Shown: piece after piece, positions 10,296-16,376 of the stretch
How the letters are laid out: each line of letters opens with the position of its first letter
How positions within the stretch are numbered: position 1 is the first letter of the stretch
IMG/VR virus record: IMGVR_UViG_3300029448_000558
Location: 1-20,659 of that record
DNA length: 20,659 nucleotides
DNA from: a virus
Direction: 5' to 3' (one strand)
The notes under the pieces: model-generated
Database searches by the model: none
The model's input: only the letters and a program-made list of their open reading frames with translations
Told to the model about the DNA's origin: nothing
Program-made: the position numbers and the translations under genes

Positions 10296-11147
10296 ATGGC
10301 TGAAGAATTAGTTATGACAAAGGAAGCAACACCTAAAAAAGTTGCATTTGCAAGTAAACCTTACTCGCAAGAAGACAAAAGAAAAAAAGAAGAAGAAGAA
10401 TTAGAAAGTTTATTAAAGGAACAACAAGAAGGCAGTAGTAACGAAGAAGAACCATCTAGTCCTGAAGAAAAAACTTTTAAGAAGAGATACTCTGATTTAA
10501 GAAGACATCAACAAAAACAATCAGAAGAACTTAGAGAAAAAATAACTGCGTTAGAAAGTCAACTATCTGATGCAACAAAAAAAGAAATGAAGTTACCTAC
10601 ATCTGAAGAAGACTTAGATGCTTGGGTTTCTAAATATCCTGATGTTGCTGCTATTGTTGAAACTATTGCAATAAAGAAAGCAAAAGAACAATCTGCTGAT
10701 ATACAAAAGAAACTAAAAGCAATTGATGAAATGAAAATTTCTGCAACTAAAGAAAAAGCTGAAGCAGAACTTTTACAAATGCATCCTGATTTTGCAGACA
10801 TTAGAGAGAGTAATGAGTTTCACGAGTGGGCAGAAGAACAACCAAAGTGGGTTCAAGATGCATTATATGAAAATGACAGTGATGCTAAGTCTGCTGCAAG
10901 AGCTATAGATTTATATAAGATAGATAATAATATTAAAAAAGATACATCTAAAAAATCAAATGATGTAGCAAAGTCTGTCTCTACAAAGAATATGAGAAGC
11001 AGACCACAAGACAAAAACAAAGGTGTTATTAAAGAGTCTGACGTTCAGAAAATGTCTGCTCAAGAATACGAAAAAAATTCTGAAGTTATAATGGAATCTA
11101 TACGTAGTGGTTCATTTATATATGATATATCTGGTTCAGCTAGATAG
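10296..11147 (+). CDS. Capsid assembly scaffolding protein
   Basis: A 283-residue, highly charged, mostly helical protein with a textbook AAAGGAG ribosome-binding site 7 bases before the ATG. The N-terminal third is Lys/Glu-rich and probably disordered. The motif FKKRYSDLRRHQQKQSEEL leads into a coiled coil (about residues 65-95), then a LPTSEEDLDAWVSKYPDVAAIVETIA segment and a HPDFADIRES...W...QP region typical of marine phage scaffolds as I recall them. The C-terminal part is basic, as expected for the region of a scaffold that binds the coat protein. It would form the inner core of the procapsid and leave before DNA packaging. Its position before the major capsid gene supports this, with the oxygenase gene lying between them. 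Confidence 0.85.
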   Translation: MAEELVMTKEATPKKVAFASKPYSQEDKRKKEEEELESLLKEQQEGSSNEEEPSSPEEKTFKKRYSDLRRHQQKQSEELREKITALESQLSDATKKEMKLPTSEEDLDAWVSKYPDVAAIVETIAIKKAKEQSADIQKKLKAIDEMKISATKEKAEAELLQMHPDFADIRESNEFHEWAEEQPKWVQDALYENDSDAKSAARAIDLYKIDNNIKKDTSKKSNDVAKSVSTKNMRSRPQDKNKGVIKESDVQKMSAQEYEKNSEVIMESIRSGSFIYDISGSAR

Positions 11148-11156
11148 GATTATATA

Positions 11157-11834
11157 ATGGCACATAACAGTAAAATATACGTTCCTAAAAAGGACGAAGA
11201 ATACATAGCACCCTTTGGTCCTGTAATGGGATACAAAAAAATGACTCCAGCTTTCTTACGAAAGATGAATGAGTTAATGGACCCTAACTTAGAAGATTGG
11301 TCTAATAATCTTGTAGGTAAAGTAAAACAAGAATTAAAGTTTACTAAAGAAATAGAAAAGTTATGGCATAATGAGTTTGCACAATTTATAGGTAAATTCC
11401 ATAACTATGTTGAGTATAGACATTCTTTCGGAACAAGTAAACTAGATATTGATAAATATAATCATGGCATACAAATAGCTTCAGGATGGTTTGTAAGACA
11501 ATTTGAGAATGAATACAATCCATTACATATTCACACAGGTGCTAGAATGTCTTGCGTTGGTTATTTGAAACTACCTAAAGGTATAGAGAAAGAGTGGGAA
11601 GAAGATTATAAAGACCACCATCCTGCAAATGGACATATACAATTTGCTCATGGAACACCTTCAGGATATAGTCAAACAAACTTTATGGTTAAACCACAAG
11701 TAGGAGATTTTTATATATTTCCTGCAGAATTATTTCATTGTGTTTATCCATTTAAGACTAAAGGAGAAAGACGTTCCTTTAGTGTGAACTTTACTTTTGT
11801 TGAAGTTCCAAAAGAAACTGTTGACAAACAGTAA
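11157..11834 (+). CDS. Putative 2-oxoglutarate/Fe(II)-dependent oxygenase
   Basis: A 225-residue protein with the sequence pattern of the double-stranded beta-helix oxygenase fold. NPLHIHTGARMSCVGYLKLP holds the first iron-binding histidine (H124, with H126 two residues on). GDFYIFPAELFHCVYPF holds the distal histidine H194. GERRSFSVNF supplies a basic residue (R205 or R206) that would hold 2-oxoglutarate. These features match the phage and marine bacterial 2OG-Fe(II) oxygenase group, which hydroxylates varied substrates. The substrate here cannot be deduced. The gene sits between scaffold and capsid genes with a 9-bp gap upstream and an AGGAT ribosome-binding site, so it would be expressed late with the head proteins. 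A capsid promoter starts within its last codons. The usual HxD is HxH here. Confidence 0.8.
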   Translation: MAHNSKIYVPKKDEEYIAPFGPVMGYKKMTPAFLRKMNELMDPNLEDWSNNLVGKVKQELKFTKEIEKLWHNEFAQFIGKFHNYVEYRHSFGTSKLDIDKYNHGIQIASGWFVRQFENEYNPLHIHTGARMSCVGYLKLPKGIEKEWEEDYKDHHPANGHIQFAHGTPSGYSQTNFMVKPQVGDFYIFPAELFHCVYPFKTKGERRSFSVNFTFVEVPKETVDKQ

Positions 11835-11858
11835 TTTATGTATATAACTATATATAAT
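11821..11858 (+). promoter_or_regulatory. Candidate sigma70 promoter for the major capsid operon
   Basis: A perfect -35 TTGACA (11821-11826) overlaps the last codons of the oxygenase gene and is part of the shared 10-mer TTGACAAACA. A -10 TATAAC lies at 11843-11848 after a 16-nt spacer. A perfect TATAAT also lies at 11853-11858 but at too long a spacing from this -35. Initiation would fall around 11855-11865, at the left arm of the stem-loop that follows, and would give the capsid gene its own strong late transcript. Confidence 0.6.
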
Positions 11859-11860
11859 AC

Positions 11861-11900
11861 TGTAAGCAAAGCCCACAGATACGTGATACCTTTGCTTACA
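11861..11900 (+). other. Perfect 11-bp stem-loop in the capsid mRNA leader
   Basis: TGTAAGCAAAG (11861-11871) is the exact reverse complement of CTTTGCTTACA (11890-11900), with an 18-nt loop that contains GATACGTGATAC. No T-run follows on either strand, so it does not look like a terminator. It lies at the predicted 5' end of the capsid transcript, where it could protect the mRNA from decay or hold a binding site. A second, weaker hairpin (TATAAG 11958-11963 with CTTATA 11973-11978) lies further down the same 231-bp gene-free leader. Confidence 0.65.
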
Positions 11901-12052
11901 AACATCAGCAAACAACAAAAAGTTTTAAAGAATACCTGGTAAACTTAGCCCATTAAGTATAAGAATGTACAGCTTATATAGTATGCACCTAACGTAAATC
12001 AGCCCTGTTATTACATTTGTATGTTCGCATCTGTAAACTATGCTTATAATAT

Positions 12053-12058
12053 AGGGAG
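12053..12058 (+). promoter_or_regulatory. Ribosome-binding site that fixes the capsid gene start
   Basis: AGGGAG lies 7 bases before the ATG at 12066. It selects this start over an in-frame ATG at 12021, which has no such site and whose extra 15 residues do not resemble capsid N-termini. Confidence 0.75.
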
Positions 12059-12065
12059 ATATAAA

Positions 12066-13124
12066 ATGGCATTTTCTACTGCGGCAGGTTATGGTAATCT
12101 ACCTAATGGAAATTTTAGCCCCATTATCTATAGCAAACAGGTGCAACTTGCATTTCGCAAGTCATCTATTTCTGAAGCAATCACTAACTCTGATTACTTT
12201 GGAGAAATTGCTAACATGGGTGATTCCGTTAAGGTTATTAAAGAACCTGAAATTACAGTTAAGGCTTATACAAGAGGTACAGCAATTACACCTCAAGACC
12301 TTGACGATGAAGAGTTCAGCCTAACAATTGACAAAGCTAATTACTTTGCATTTAAGGTTGACGATATCGAAGAAGCACATTCACACGTTAACTTTCAACA
12401 GTTAGCTAGTGATAGAGCTGCTTATAGACTATCTGACCAATTTGACCAAGACGTTCTTGGTTACTTGTCAGGTTTTAAGCAGTCATCTATACATGGTACT
12501 GCTGATACTGCAAACTCAACTGTAAATGGCTCAAAAGCTGTTTCAACTGCTGGTTCAGACGAATTATTATCATCAATGTTAATTGATGCTCTTGATTTTG
12601 GTGGGTCATCAGGTGATGCTGTTGCTATCCAACCTAGAACAGGTGGAGCTACTACTGCTGCCCCTGCTGCTGGTGATAGACACCCATTAACAGTTATTGC
12701 TCGTATGTCAAGATTACTTGACCAACAAAATGTAGATACTAACGGAAGATGGTTAGTTTTAGACCCAGTATTTATTGAGGTTTTAAAAGACGAAGACTCA
12801 AGATTATTTGATGCCGATTTCGGTGGAAGTGGTCTTCAGAATGGTTTAATTCTTAATAACCTACACGGTTTTAAAGTTTACCAATCTAACAATCTACCTG
12901 CTGTTGGAACAGGTCCTTCAAATACAGGCACAAACAGTTCAACAAACTATGGTGTGATTGTGGCAGGACATAGTTCTGCTGTAGCTACTGCTGAACAAAT
13001 CAACAAAACAGAGACTTATAGAGACCCTGATTCTTTTGCTGATATTGTTAGAGGTATGCATTTGTATGGTCGAAAGATACTTAGACCTGAAGCTCTTGTT
13101 AGAGCAAAATATCACTTAGCGTAA
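12066..13124 (+). CDS. Major capsid protein (HK97-like fold expected)
   Basis: A 352-residue capsid subunit. The start MAFSTAAGYGNLPNGNFSP, the segment YFGEIANMGDSVKVIKEPEI followed by YTRGTAITPQDL, and the motif KANYFAFKVDDIEEAHSHVN match the major capsid family I know from marine phages. The C-terminal half has the WLVLDPVFIEVLKDE and GLILNNLHGFKVYQSNNLP segments seen in HK97-fold coat proteins of this type. Codons are less AT-biased than in most of the window (more GAC, GTT, CTT), in keeping with high expression. It follows its own promoter and leader. The gap to the next gene is 13 bp with a strong AAGGAGA site. No cleavable N-terminal prohead domain is obvious. Confidence 0.92.
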   Translation: MAFSTAAGYGNLPNGNFSPIIYSKQVQLAFRKSSISEAITNSDYFGEIANMGDSVKVIKEPEITVKAYTRGTAITPQDLDDEEFSLTIDKANYFAFKVDDIEEAHSHVNFQQLASDRAAYRLSDQFDQDVLGYLSGFKQSSIHGTADTANSTVNGSKAVSTAGSDELLSSMLIDALDFGGSSGDAVAIQPRTGGATTAAPAAGDRHPLTVIARMSRLLDQQNVDTNGRWLVLDPVFIEVLKDEDSRLFDADFGGSGLQNGLILNNLHGFKVYQSNNLPAVGTGPSNTGTNSSTNYGVIVAGHSSAVATAEQINKTETYRDPDSFADIVRGMHLYGRKILRPEALVRAKYHLA

Positions 13125-13696: not shown

Positions 13697-14638
13697 ATGG
13701 CTGAAAGTTTTCTTACACATACAAATAGAGTAATAGCACGTTTAAATGAAGTGCAATTAACATCTTCTAATTTTACTTCTTCAAGAGGTATTCAAACACA
13801 ATGTAAGAACGCTGTTAACGAAGCCGTAAGATTTATTAATCAAAAAGAATTTCAATATCCTTTTAATCACACAACAAAGACAGAAACACTAACTGCTGGA
13901 ACATTTAAATATAGTATACCAACAGATGCTAAAACAGTTGACTATAATACATTTAGATTAGTTAAAGATAGTGACTTAGCAACTAGTGGTGGTAAACTAA
14001 GGACAACAGATTATAATGATTATGTAAATTCATACATAACTCAAGAAGATGAAATAAGTACAACAACATTAAGTACATCACATACAGACTCTGTTACTAC
14101 AATTACAGTTGTAAGCACAACAGGATTTAATAGTGCAGGTACTTTATTTATAGGAAATGAACAAGTAACATACACAGCTATAGGTAGTTCAACAACATTT
14201 ACTGGTGTAACACGAGGGGCTAATGGAACAACAGAATCTGCCCATGATAGTGGTGTTCAAGTTGCACAGTTTGAAAGAGGTGGTATACCACAATCTGTTA
14301 TTAGAACACCTGATAATAATTATATATTATATCCTTTCCCAACAAAATCATTTTCTATAAAGTACGATTACTTTTCTTTTCCAACAGATATGACAGCACA
14401 TAGTGATACAACAACTATACCTGATAGATTTGCACCTATTATAGCAGATGGTGCTACAGCATTTGTTTATCAGTATAGAGGTGAGACACAACAATATGGT
14501 ATAAACTTTGCACGTTTTGAGCAAGGTATAAAGAATATGCAAACGCTATTGGTAAATAGATTTGACTACATTAGGTCTACATTTATACCAAGGCAAGGTT
14601 ATTCAAATACGTCTGATATAACAACAAGAGTAAGTTAA
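13697..14638 (+). CDS. Head-tail adaptor or tail tube-like protein with an inserted beta module
   Basis: A 313-residue protein. The N-terminus (residues about 3-50) has the pattern FLTHTNRVIARLNEVQLTSS, NFTSSRGIQTQ and NEAVRFINQKEFQYPFNHT. The C-terminal part has IPDRFAPIIADGATAFVYQYRGE and NFARFEQGIKNMQTLLVNRF. Together these match the adaptor/tail-tube-like proteins I recall in marine short-tailed phages, which attach the tail below the portal. Residues about 121-190 form an inserted, Thr/Ser-rich beta module (TGFNSAGTLFIGNEQVTYT...FTGVTRG), which recurs in the next gene. AGGA ribosome-binding motifs precede the ATG. It is separated from the next gene by one base, and it follows the hairpin at 13650. 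Confidence 0.72.
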   Translation: MAESFLTHTNRVIARLNEVQLTSSNFTSSRGIQTQCKNAVNEAVRFINQKEFQYPFNHTTKTETLTAGTFKYSIPTDAKTVDYNTFRLVKDSDLATSGGKLRTTDYNDYVNSYITQEDEISTTTLSTSHTDSVTTITVVSTTGFNSAGTLFIGNEQVTYTAIGSSTTFTGVTRGANGTTESAHDSGVQVAQFERGGIPQSVIRTPDNNYILYPFPTKSFSIKYDYFSFPTDMTAHSDTTTIPDRFAPIIADGATAFVYQYRGETQQYGINFARFEQGIKNMQTLLVNRFDYIRSTFIPRQGYSNTSDITTRVS

Positions 14639-14639
14639 T

Positions 14640-16376
14640 ATGCCTGACCAATCGCAAACTTCTCCTTCAGCATTTGTATGTGAAGGTGGGTTAGTTAAAA
14701 GTCGTTCTACGTTTATAATGCAACCAGGACAAGCACTTGAGTTGTTAAACTTTGAGCCTGACATTGAAGGTGGGTATAGAAGAATAAACGGTTTTAGAAA
14801 ACACTGCAATCACATTGTACCTCAAACTTCAGCTAGTACCGAAAAAGTTTTAATGGTAGCATTTTTTAATAATAACATAATAGCTGCTAGAGGTGAAAAA
14901 ATATTTAGTTCAGCTTCAAGTGAGCTATCTGGTAAAATACTCATAGGTACAAGCATGGCAGGTTCAGGCACTATTTCAGTAGATAGTACAAGTGGCTTTA
15001 GTTCTAGTGGTACTTTACAAATTAACTCAGAAATATTTACTTACACAGGAAAAACAACTTCAGCATTTACAGGCGTAACAAGAGCAACAAGTTCAACATC
15101 TGCTGCAGCACACGCAATAGATGATACAGTTTCAGAGAGTTGGACAGAAAGAGATAATAGTAGAACAAATGCTAGTAAGTATTCGTTTGAAAGATATAAC
15201 TTTGATGGCAATGAAAAGTTAATTGTTGTTGATGGAGTAAATGACCCAACAATATTTAACACATCTTTAACAGCTTCAGATGTTACAACTTCAAGTGTAG
15301 AGGGTGCTAAATTTGTAGCTGCATTTAAAAACCATATGTTCTATGCTGGTATGTCTAGCACACCTCAAGAGATAGTATTTAGTGAGGGTTTAAATGAAGA
15401 TGGATTTAGTTCAAGTGCTAGTTTACCTGCAGGAAGTATTAAGGTAGATGACACTATTGTTGGTATAAAAGCATTTAGAGGTGAGTTATTTATATTTTGT
15501 GAAAACAGAATATTTAAAATTACGGGAAGTTCAGGAAGTGGTTCTGATGTATTTTCAGTAACACCTGTTACAAGAAATATTGGATGTGTAAACGGTGATA
15601 CAATTCAAGAATTTGCAGGTGACTTAATATTCCTAGGACCTGATGGATTACGTACAGTAGCAGGTACAGCAAGAATTGGTGACGTTGAACTTGGAACTAT
15701 TAGTGCAAACGTACAATCTATATTTGATGAAAATTTAGTTGATGCAGCATTATTTGAATCAATTGTAATACCTAATAAAACACAATATAGAATATTCTTT
15801 TCTAAAGAAGGTGCGGCTGAAGATAATACAAAAGGTGTAATATGTGTTATGAAAGGACAGAGCTTTGAATTTTCTGAGTTAAGAGGTATAAAACCATCGT
15901 GTACAGATACCTTTGTTGAAGCAGGTAATGTGTTAACAATACATGGTGGTTTTGATGGTTTTGTACACAGACAAGAAAAAGGTAATGACTTTGATGGTAC
16001 AACAATATCAGGTAGATATAGAAGTCCTGATTTAACTTTTGGAGACCCTGGAATAAGAAAACATATGCAAAGAGTTATAGTAAACTACAAACCTGAGTCA
16101 GCTATTAATGCTGATATGTTTGTAAGATATGATTATGAAGATAGAAACTCTTCAAGACCTGCAGCATATGCATTAGATTCTGAAGATGTGGTAGCTATAT
16201 ACGGCACATCAACTTATGGAACACCTACATATGGTGGTGCATCACAACCATTACTAAGACAATCAGTAGAGGGTTCAGGATTTGCAGTTGCATTGAGAGT
16301 TAATGATAATGCTACAACAGCACCATACTCATTAAAAGGATTTCAATTAGAATATCAGTTAGGAGCAAGAAGGTAA
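14640..16376 (+). CDS. Tail nozzle/hub-like protein with an inserted beta module
   Basis: A 578-residue protein, mostly beta strands. It opens with PSAFVCEGGLVKSRSTFIMQPGQALELLNFEPDIEGGYRRINGFRK, a start I recall from tail proteins of marine short-tailed phages (shown here in overlapping pieces: FVCEGGLVKSRS, LELLNFEPDIEGGYRRI). Repeated strands such as KFVAAFKNHMFYAG, ELFIFCENRIFKITG and GDLIFLGPDGLRTVAG resemble blades of a beta propeller, the fold of podovirus nozzle proteins. Residues about 101-165 are an inserted module similar to the one in the preceding gene. It probably forms the lower tail, below the adaptor ring. Its ATG is two bases after the preceding stop, and its own stop abuts the next ATG. 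Confidence 0.7.
   Translation: MPDQSQTSPSAFVCEGGLVKSRSTFIMQPGQALELLNFEPDIEGGYRRINGFRKHCNHIVPQTSASTEKVLMVAFFNNNIIAARGEKIFSSASSELSGKILIGTSMAGSGTISVDSTSGFSSSGTLQINSEIFTYTGKTTSAFTGVTRATSSTSAAAHAIDDTVSESWTERDNSRTNASKYSFERYNFDGNEKLIVVDGVNDPTIFNTSLTASDVTTSSVEGAKFVAAFKNHMFYAGMSSTPQEIVFSEGLNEDGFSSSASLPAGSIKVDDTIVGIKAFRGELFIFCENRIFKITGSSGSGSDVFSVTPVTRNIGCVNGDTIQEFAGDLIFLGPDGLRTVAGTARIGDVELGTISANVQSIFDENLVDAALFESIVIPNKTQYRIFFSKEGAAEDNTKGVICVMKGQSFEFSELRGIKPSCTDTFVEAGNVLTIHGGFDGFVHRQEKGNDFDGTTISGRYRSPDLTFGDPGIRKHMQRVIVNYKPESAINADMFVRYDYEDRNSSRPAAYALDSEDVVAIYGTSTYGTPTYGGASQPLLRQSVEGSGFAVALRVNDNATTAPYSLKGFQLEYQLGARR

Follow-up and report, generated by a model that had tools for sequence, protein, structure and literature searches.

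HMO-2011-type phages are recognised in part by a DnaJ-like domain inserted in their DNA polymerase, and SAR116 is the host clade of HMO-2011. In HMO-2011, CRP-1 and CRP-345 the scaffold gene, a promoter, a leader and the capsid gene follow one another as they do in the DNA studied here, but these phages are without the oxygenase gene that is our subject and their scaffold-capsid junction measures 240-263 bp. A phage collection search gave no oxygenase match in HMO-2011-type isolates, and the main text of a survey of such phages does not mention a 2OG oxygenase (PMC9038755). Phage MW202701 (Manatee Spring) also has a guest gene in this junction; its guest is an annotated HNH-type endonuclease inserted 3' of the promoter, whereas the oxygenase lies 5' of it. 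Thus the junction takes different guests. In MW202701.1 (L083) the endonuclease gene occupies locus coordinates 14579-15148, between the promoter and the capsid gene.

For phage 2OG oxygenases in general, DNA repair and nitrogen/2OG signalling have been proposed (PMC3037559), as have a coupling to ferrochelatase in pelagiphages (PMC9599517) and a repair role in CRP-810-type phages (PMC11288001). None of these proposals was found tested on the subfamily described here in any of the three papers.

An oxygenase gene among the head genes

The window, which is the whole stretch of DNA analysed (a 20.7-kb record), comes from an HMO-2011-type podovirus, as capsid, TerL and portal homologues are present in conserved order and the terminase/portal/adaptor order matches that of HMO-2011; the replication module lies outside it. 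All features given below are on the + strand. A 225-aa gene of the 2OG-Fe(II)-oxygenase type (11157..11834) is situated 9 bp 3' of the scaffold stop codon and 231 bp 5' of the capsid start. Its product matched PF13759 (2OG-FeII_Oxy_5; 6.1e-18, 65.5 bits against a Pfam gathering cut-off of 27) and phrog_81, '2OG-Fe(II) oxygenase' (1.3e-24), and scored 42.4 bits against NCBIfam TIGR02466, under the curated cut-off of 62.5. The upstream gene (10296..11147) matched phrog_13678 (1.4e-65), and its product is 70% identical to HMO-2011 gp48 over residues 59-283; gp48 and phrog_13678 are labelled 'hypothetical' or 'unknown function' in databases, and the gene is taken as a probable scaffold gene because it precedes the capsid gene and encodes a charged sequence that looks coiled. 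Downstream lies the major capsid protein gene (12066..13124; phrog_267, 1.2e-65; 79% identity to the HMO-2011 'putative coat protein'), the start of which was set at 12066 by homology and not at 12021, where a longer ORF begins. The oxygenase, its place between these two genes and the 9-bp gap were thus correctly read in the original prediction. The same gene order turned up in dozens of separate IMG/VR contigs, which rules out an error of assembly as its source.

A Shine-Dalgarno-like motif, AGGA (11146..11149, read from the sequence), overlaps the scaffold stop 7 nt 5' of the oxygenase ATG. No promoter was visible in the 9-bp gap, either by eye or with a sigma-70 scanner, and the oxygenase is therefore expected to share the scaffold transcript rather than to depend on the capsid promoter, which agrees with what had been predicted. 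The upstream junction takes two forms, an 8-9 bp gap in the clade of the window and a 4-nt ATGA overlap with the scaffold stop in a second clade, and these geometries are in line with separate insertions.

An AlphaFold2 model made with 45 homologues (pLDDT 82, pTM 0.83; low confidence in the loop of residues 154-159) predicts a double-stranded beta-helix of the 2OG oxygenase superfamily. A PDB sequence search with the single oxygenase protein as query gave no match. The top PDB matches in Foldseek were 3bvc and 2rg4, then PasI, PolD, Tpa1 and prolyl/lysyl hydroxylases, with E-values of 3e-7 to 1e-4 for the best of them (3bvc, 2rg4, PasI, PolD and prolyl hydroxylases). TM-scores of about 0.4-0.5 for PasI, PolD, Tpa1 and the prolyl/lysyl hydroxylases are too general for naming a substrate.

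H124-x-H126 (11526..11534), H194 and R205 are taken to make up the metal site, as all four residues are invariant in 67/67 homologues. The iron site, on whose function the original prediction had partly staked its reading, is conserved, but as HxH...H...R instead of HxD...H...R: the canonical HxD/E...H triad is replaced by HxH...H194, with His at the carboxylate position, in every homologue. The distal Arg/Lys associated with the 2OG carboxylate is present as R205, again in 67/67, and aligns with the Arg of 3bvc. Since 3bvc also carries HIH, the HxH motif looks like a subfamily trait and not like decay. In seven homologue pairs dN/dS is about 0.01-0.12, a sign of strong purifying selection, and about 70 residues are invariant in 45 diverse homologues. 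The oxygenase is presumably catalytically active.

Occupied and empty scaffold-capsid junctions

The capsid promoter, TTGACA-N16-TATAAC (11821..11848), was found with an explicit pattern, as the sole match in the window against 0.03 expected by chance; the sigma-70 scanner, which accepts only T as the final base of the -10 box, missed it. Its -35 box lies inside the last oxygenase codons, so that in the window the C-terminal tail VDKQ encodes the box. Of 80 loci collected with the capsid protein as query, 74 were scorable and 6 were not. The scaffold-capsid slot was occupied by the oxygenase in 14/74 and empty in 60/74, at scaffold-capsid distances of 885-946 bp and 219-301 bp, respectively. 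All 60 empty loci have the promoter, 3-15 bp after the scaffold stop and with a 16-bp spacer (rarely 17-18). It is likewise present in 70/70 scored occupied loci, overlapping or closely following the oxygenase 3' end; 68 of these were found by the first scan and two (L034 and L041, where the promoter is 8 bp 3' of the oxygenase stop) by inspection. Promoter and leader therefore predate the oxygenase, since relatives without it have the promoter immediately 3' of the scaffold stop. The suggestion that they had been kept or gained through the insertion is thus refuted; on this comparison the capsid promoter and leader are ancestral, and the oxygenase was inserted upstream of them.

The clearest pair consists of L111, which is occupied, and L112, which is empty. 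Their capsids are identical in 354/358 residues and their leaders are 98% identical, and the extra DNA of L111 is a clean insertion of about 650 bp, running from the scaffold stop to just before the promoter. On the capsid tree, slot occupancy requires 10 changes, of which at least seven are forced by well-supported branches, and a comparison of capsid residues revealed none perfectly associated with the presence of the oxygenase.

The 5' leader of the capsid mRNA (11843..12065) is structured and conserved, and is present in phages with and without the oxygenase. In 23 sequences its 33 pairs are paired in 92% of cells, 21/33 pairs have changed on both sides, and covariation reached 0.402 as against 0.196 in shuffled alignments (0/500 as high) and about 0.07 in slid ones. 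The leader could be regulatory and control capsid synthesis. A GCAAACRAC stretch resembled a tmRNA tag, but the idea of a tmRNA- or tRNA-like element was dropped, as ARAGORN and Rfam gave no match for the leader. Leaders of the window type also occur in L082, L084, L106, L111, L118, L128, L139 and others, and a second leader type (ACTTTAGAGATTACCCAATTATGTGAGCC...CGCATGAATGGTCCTTATAAAGTAAAATGACTAAAA) precedes related capsid genes in L092-L097, L113, L131 and others.

Other homes of the gene in phages and bacteria

The original prediction had called for gene order to be compared in relatives with and without the gene, its reading being at risk if all of them carried it in other genome regions; many do, but not all. 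The first 80 related loci were found with the oxygenase as query, and further scans extended the set. Most of these 80 show the scaffold-oxygenase-capsid order, and the capsid slot is the commonest home among the sampled loci, a sampling that is biased by the query. In 10 of the 80 the oxygenase lies directly 3' of the ribonucleotide reductase gene, before gp20/gp21 (MazG), as in L040, L044, L049, L052, L054, L061, L066, L068 and L071, and in two (L076 and L077) a tandem pair precedes the small terminase gene. Such tandem oxygenases span 3591-4920 in L076, 5022-6351 in L077 and 1497-2823 in L196; the copies have diverged, each falling in a different tree clade. In another phage lineage (L218-L225) the gene lies between MazG and ribonucleotide reductase, where a 4-nt overlap with the reductase frame suggests translational coupling of the two. 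It follows a helicase gene in L201, and is found in lysis cassettes of phages with unrelated structural genes (L226-L241). Its neighbours in these cassettes, named by eye, are a conserved 133-aa holin-like gene, a probable endolysin gene and a GroES-like gene.

Closely similar copies occupy different homes. Between the oxygenases of L067, in the capsid slot, and L071, in the reductase slot, identity is 98% at the protein and 92% at the DNA level, and the homology of the two loci stops at the gene boundary. The tree of the oxygenase that the original prediction had proposed did not sort by location: slots were intermixed, and a single clade per slot was rejected both for the capsid slot (p-AU 4.06e-5) and for the reductase slot (1.59e-38). 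The distant T4-like sequences are too long-branched for rooting this tree. Near-complete capsid-slot contigs of 53-60 kb hold one close oxygenase copy. G007 (43.5 kb), which matches the window at 100% identity in terminase, portal and oxygenase residues 1-204, has a reductase gene and no second oxygenase. In G012 (42 kb) the oxygenase follows the helicase gene, and the scaffold-capsid and reductase-gp20 junctions are both empty. The reductase-slot contigs stop short of the capsid gene, and these phages may have both slots filled. In search of a clean recombination breakpoint around the cassette, we also compared which loci were nearest to one another in scaffold, in leader and in capsid; mosaicism was widespread and no simple picture emerged.

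When 84,980 species genomes were scanned, 16 loci were obtained. One of them (L274, QQUU01000028.1) carries a Bacteroidetes label but belongs to an HMO-2011-type phage and shows the scaffold-oxygenase-capsid order; either the contig was misbinned or the host is an unexpected one. The remaining loci, chromosomal or unbinned, are alphaproteobacterial, with homologues in Henriciella, Marinicaulis, Parvularculaceae, Nisaea and SAR116 that are mostly 51-58% identical (39-46% for the most distant three) and stand alone, with no constant neighbour. In L276 and L277 (Marinicaulis, Parvularculaceae) the chromosomal gene lies between purA-like and serA/serC-like genes. The main bacterial groups adjoin the second capsid-slot clade (98/96 support), which indicates that genes passed between phages and bacteria; the nesting of bacteria among phage branches makes transfer from phage to bacterium possible as well.

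Substrate and comparison with known oxygenases

The original prediction had taken the position of the gene as pointing to a virion-linked or late substrate. An enzyme that hydroxylates the capsid, the scaffold or packaged DNA late in infection, its place between head genes reflecting that role, would agree with the recurrence of insertion at exactly the scaffold-capsid junction in two separate oxygenase clades, with the expected co-expression with the scaffold gene, and with late-gene homes in other phages (the lysis cassette and the site before the small terminase). A 98% identical copy nevertheless sits in the reductase slot, within the replication and nucleotide module, the capsid slot is empty in most capsid-seeded relatives, including L112 with its nearly identical capsid, no capsid residue tracks the gene, and bacteria hold stand-alone chromosomal homologues. 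This reading is thus quite improbable, and the inference from position drawn earlier is not supported. An enzyme acting on nucleotides, DNA or RNA, in repair or modification, is also unlikely, if a little easier to entertain. The reductase slot, the overlapping frames at the MazG-reductase slot and the helicase slot speak for it, as do the distant T4-like homologues, which lie beside the clamp gene gp45 or in the gp47-gp46 and gp43-recA intervals, and the DNA repair suggested for phage 2OG oxygenases (PMC3037559, PMC11288001). However, late-module homes are equally common, bacterial neighbours are unrelated to nucleotides except for purA in two genomes, and the Pfam scan gave no similarity of the oxygenase to the AlkB or TET/JBP families. 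It is very improbable that the consumption of 2-oxoglutarate and oxygen itself matters, through a shift in nitrogen/carbon or iron signalling, and not one specific product: this has been proposed for cyanophage 2OG oxygenases (PMC3037559) and the reported ferrochelatase coupling in pelagiphages (PMC9599517) would fit, but the roughly 70 invariant residues and low dN/dS argue for a specific substrate pocket.

We consider it somewhat probable that the gene is a host-derived auxiliary gene whose enzyme has a cellular rather than a virion substrate; both the direction of transfer and the cellular substrate are what we infer from the comparisons above. The enzyme occurs in replication modules, in phages whose capsids differ and in bacteria that are not infected, which is difficult to reconcile with a substrate in the capsid or in packaging, and a cellular protein or metabolite is, with comparable confidence, the simplest common denominator. 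On this view a cassette of one gene would have been inserted repeatedly, at several gene junctions, in HMO-2011-type phages and in other marine phages; the copy of the window would have landed between the scaffold stop and a capsid promoter that was already present. There the oxygenase would be translated from the upstream transcript, its final codons doubling as the -35 box. During infection the phage enzyme would most likely oxidise, and probably hydroxylate, a protein or metabolite of the cell, adding to or imitating the chromosomal enzyme of alphaproteobacterial hosts and leaving the capsid unmodified, although capsid and oxygenase could interact where phages have both. Like a moron, the gene is sporadic among close relatives and has a cellular homologue; in contrast to the classical moron with its own promoter and terminator, its 3' end overlaps the capsid promoter. 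A more tentative and rather doubtful idea is that a cassette without its own nuclease or transposase moves repeatedly and precisely among a few fixed junctions (those at the capsid promoter, reductase, helicase and terminase). Conserved sequence at promoters or gene ends might serve for the recombination, and one enzyme would in this way be switched between early and late expression.

Because a 98% identical enzyme adjoins replication genes in related phages, a position within the head-gene cluster is not safe evidence of virion function. The occupied and empty sites provide a clean set for studying auxiliary-gene insertion that spares a strong late promoter, and the gene points to a conserved, uncharacterised oxygenase subfamily common to abundant marine phages and alphaproteobacteria, including SAR116.

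With the PF13759/phrog_81 oxygenases of cultured cyanophages and pelagiphages, the window protein has in common a profile match above the cut-off, the fold and annotation as an auxiliary gene, but it is only 24-31% identical to them. The subfamily of the window is specific to HMO-2011-type phages, a few other marine phages and alphaproteobacteria, and, unlike its cultured-phage relatives, uses the scaffold-capsid junction; in HTVC008M, P-SSM2/P-SSM5 and S-SCSM1 the distant homologues are flanked by core replication genes. The chromosomal homologues of Henriciella, Marinicaulis, Parvularculaceae and SAR116 match the window oxygenase over nearly its full length, and those examined keep its HxH...H...R residues, but each is a stand-alone chromosomal gene with varying neighbours. 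Among solved folds the best matches are the uncharacterised 3bvc and 2rg4 of marine Rhodobacterales, of which 3bvc shares the HIH motif, the distal His and the Arg, while identity to the two is 14% and the TM-score only 0.54-0.61.
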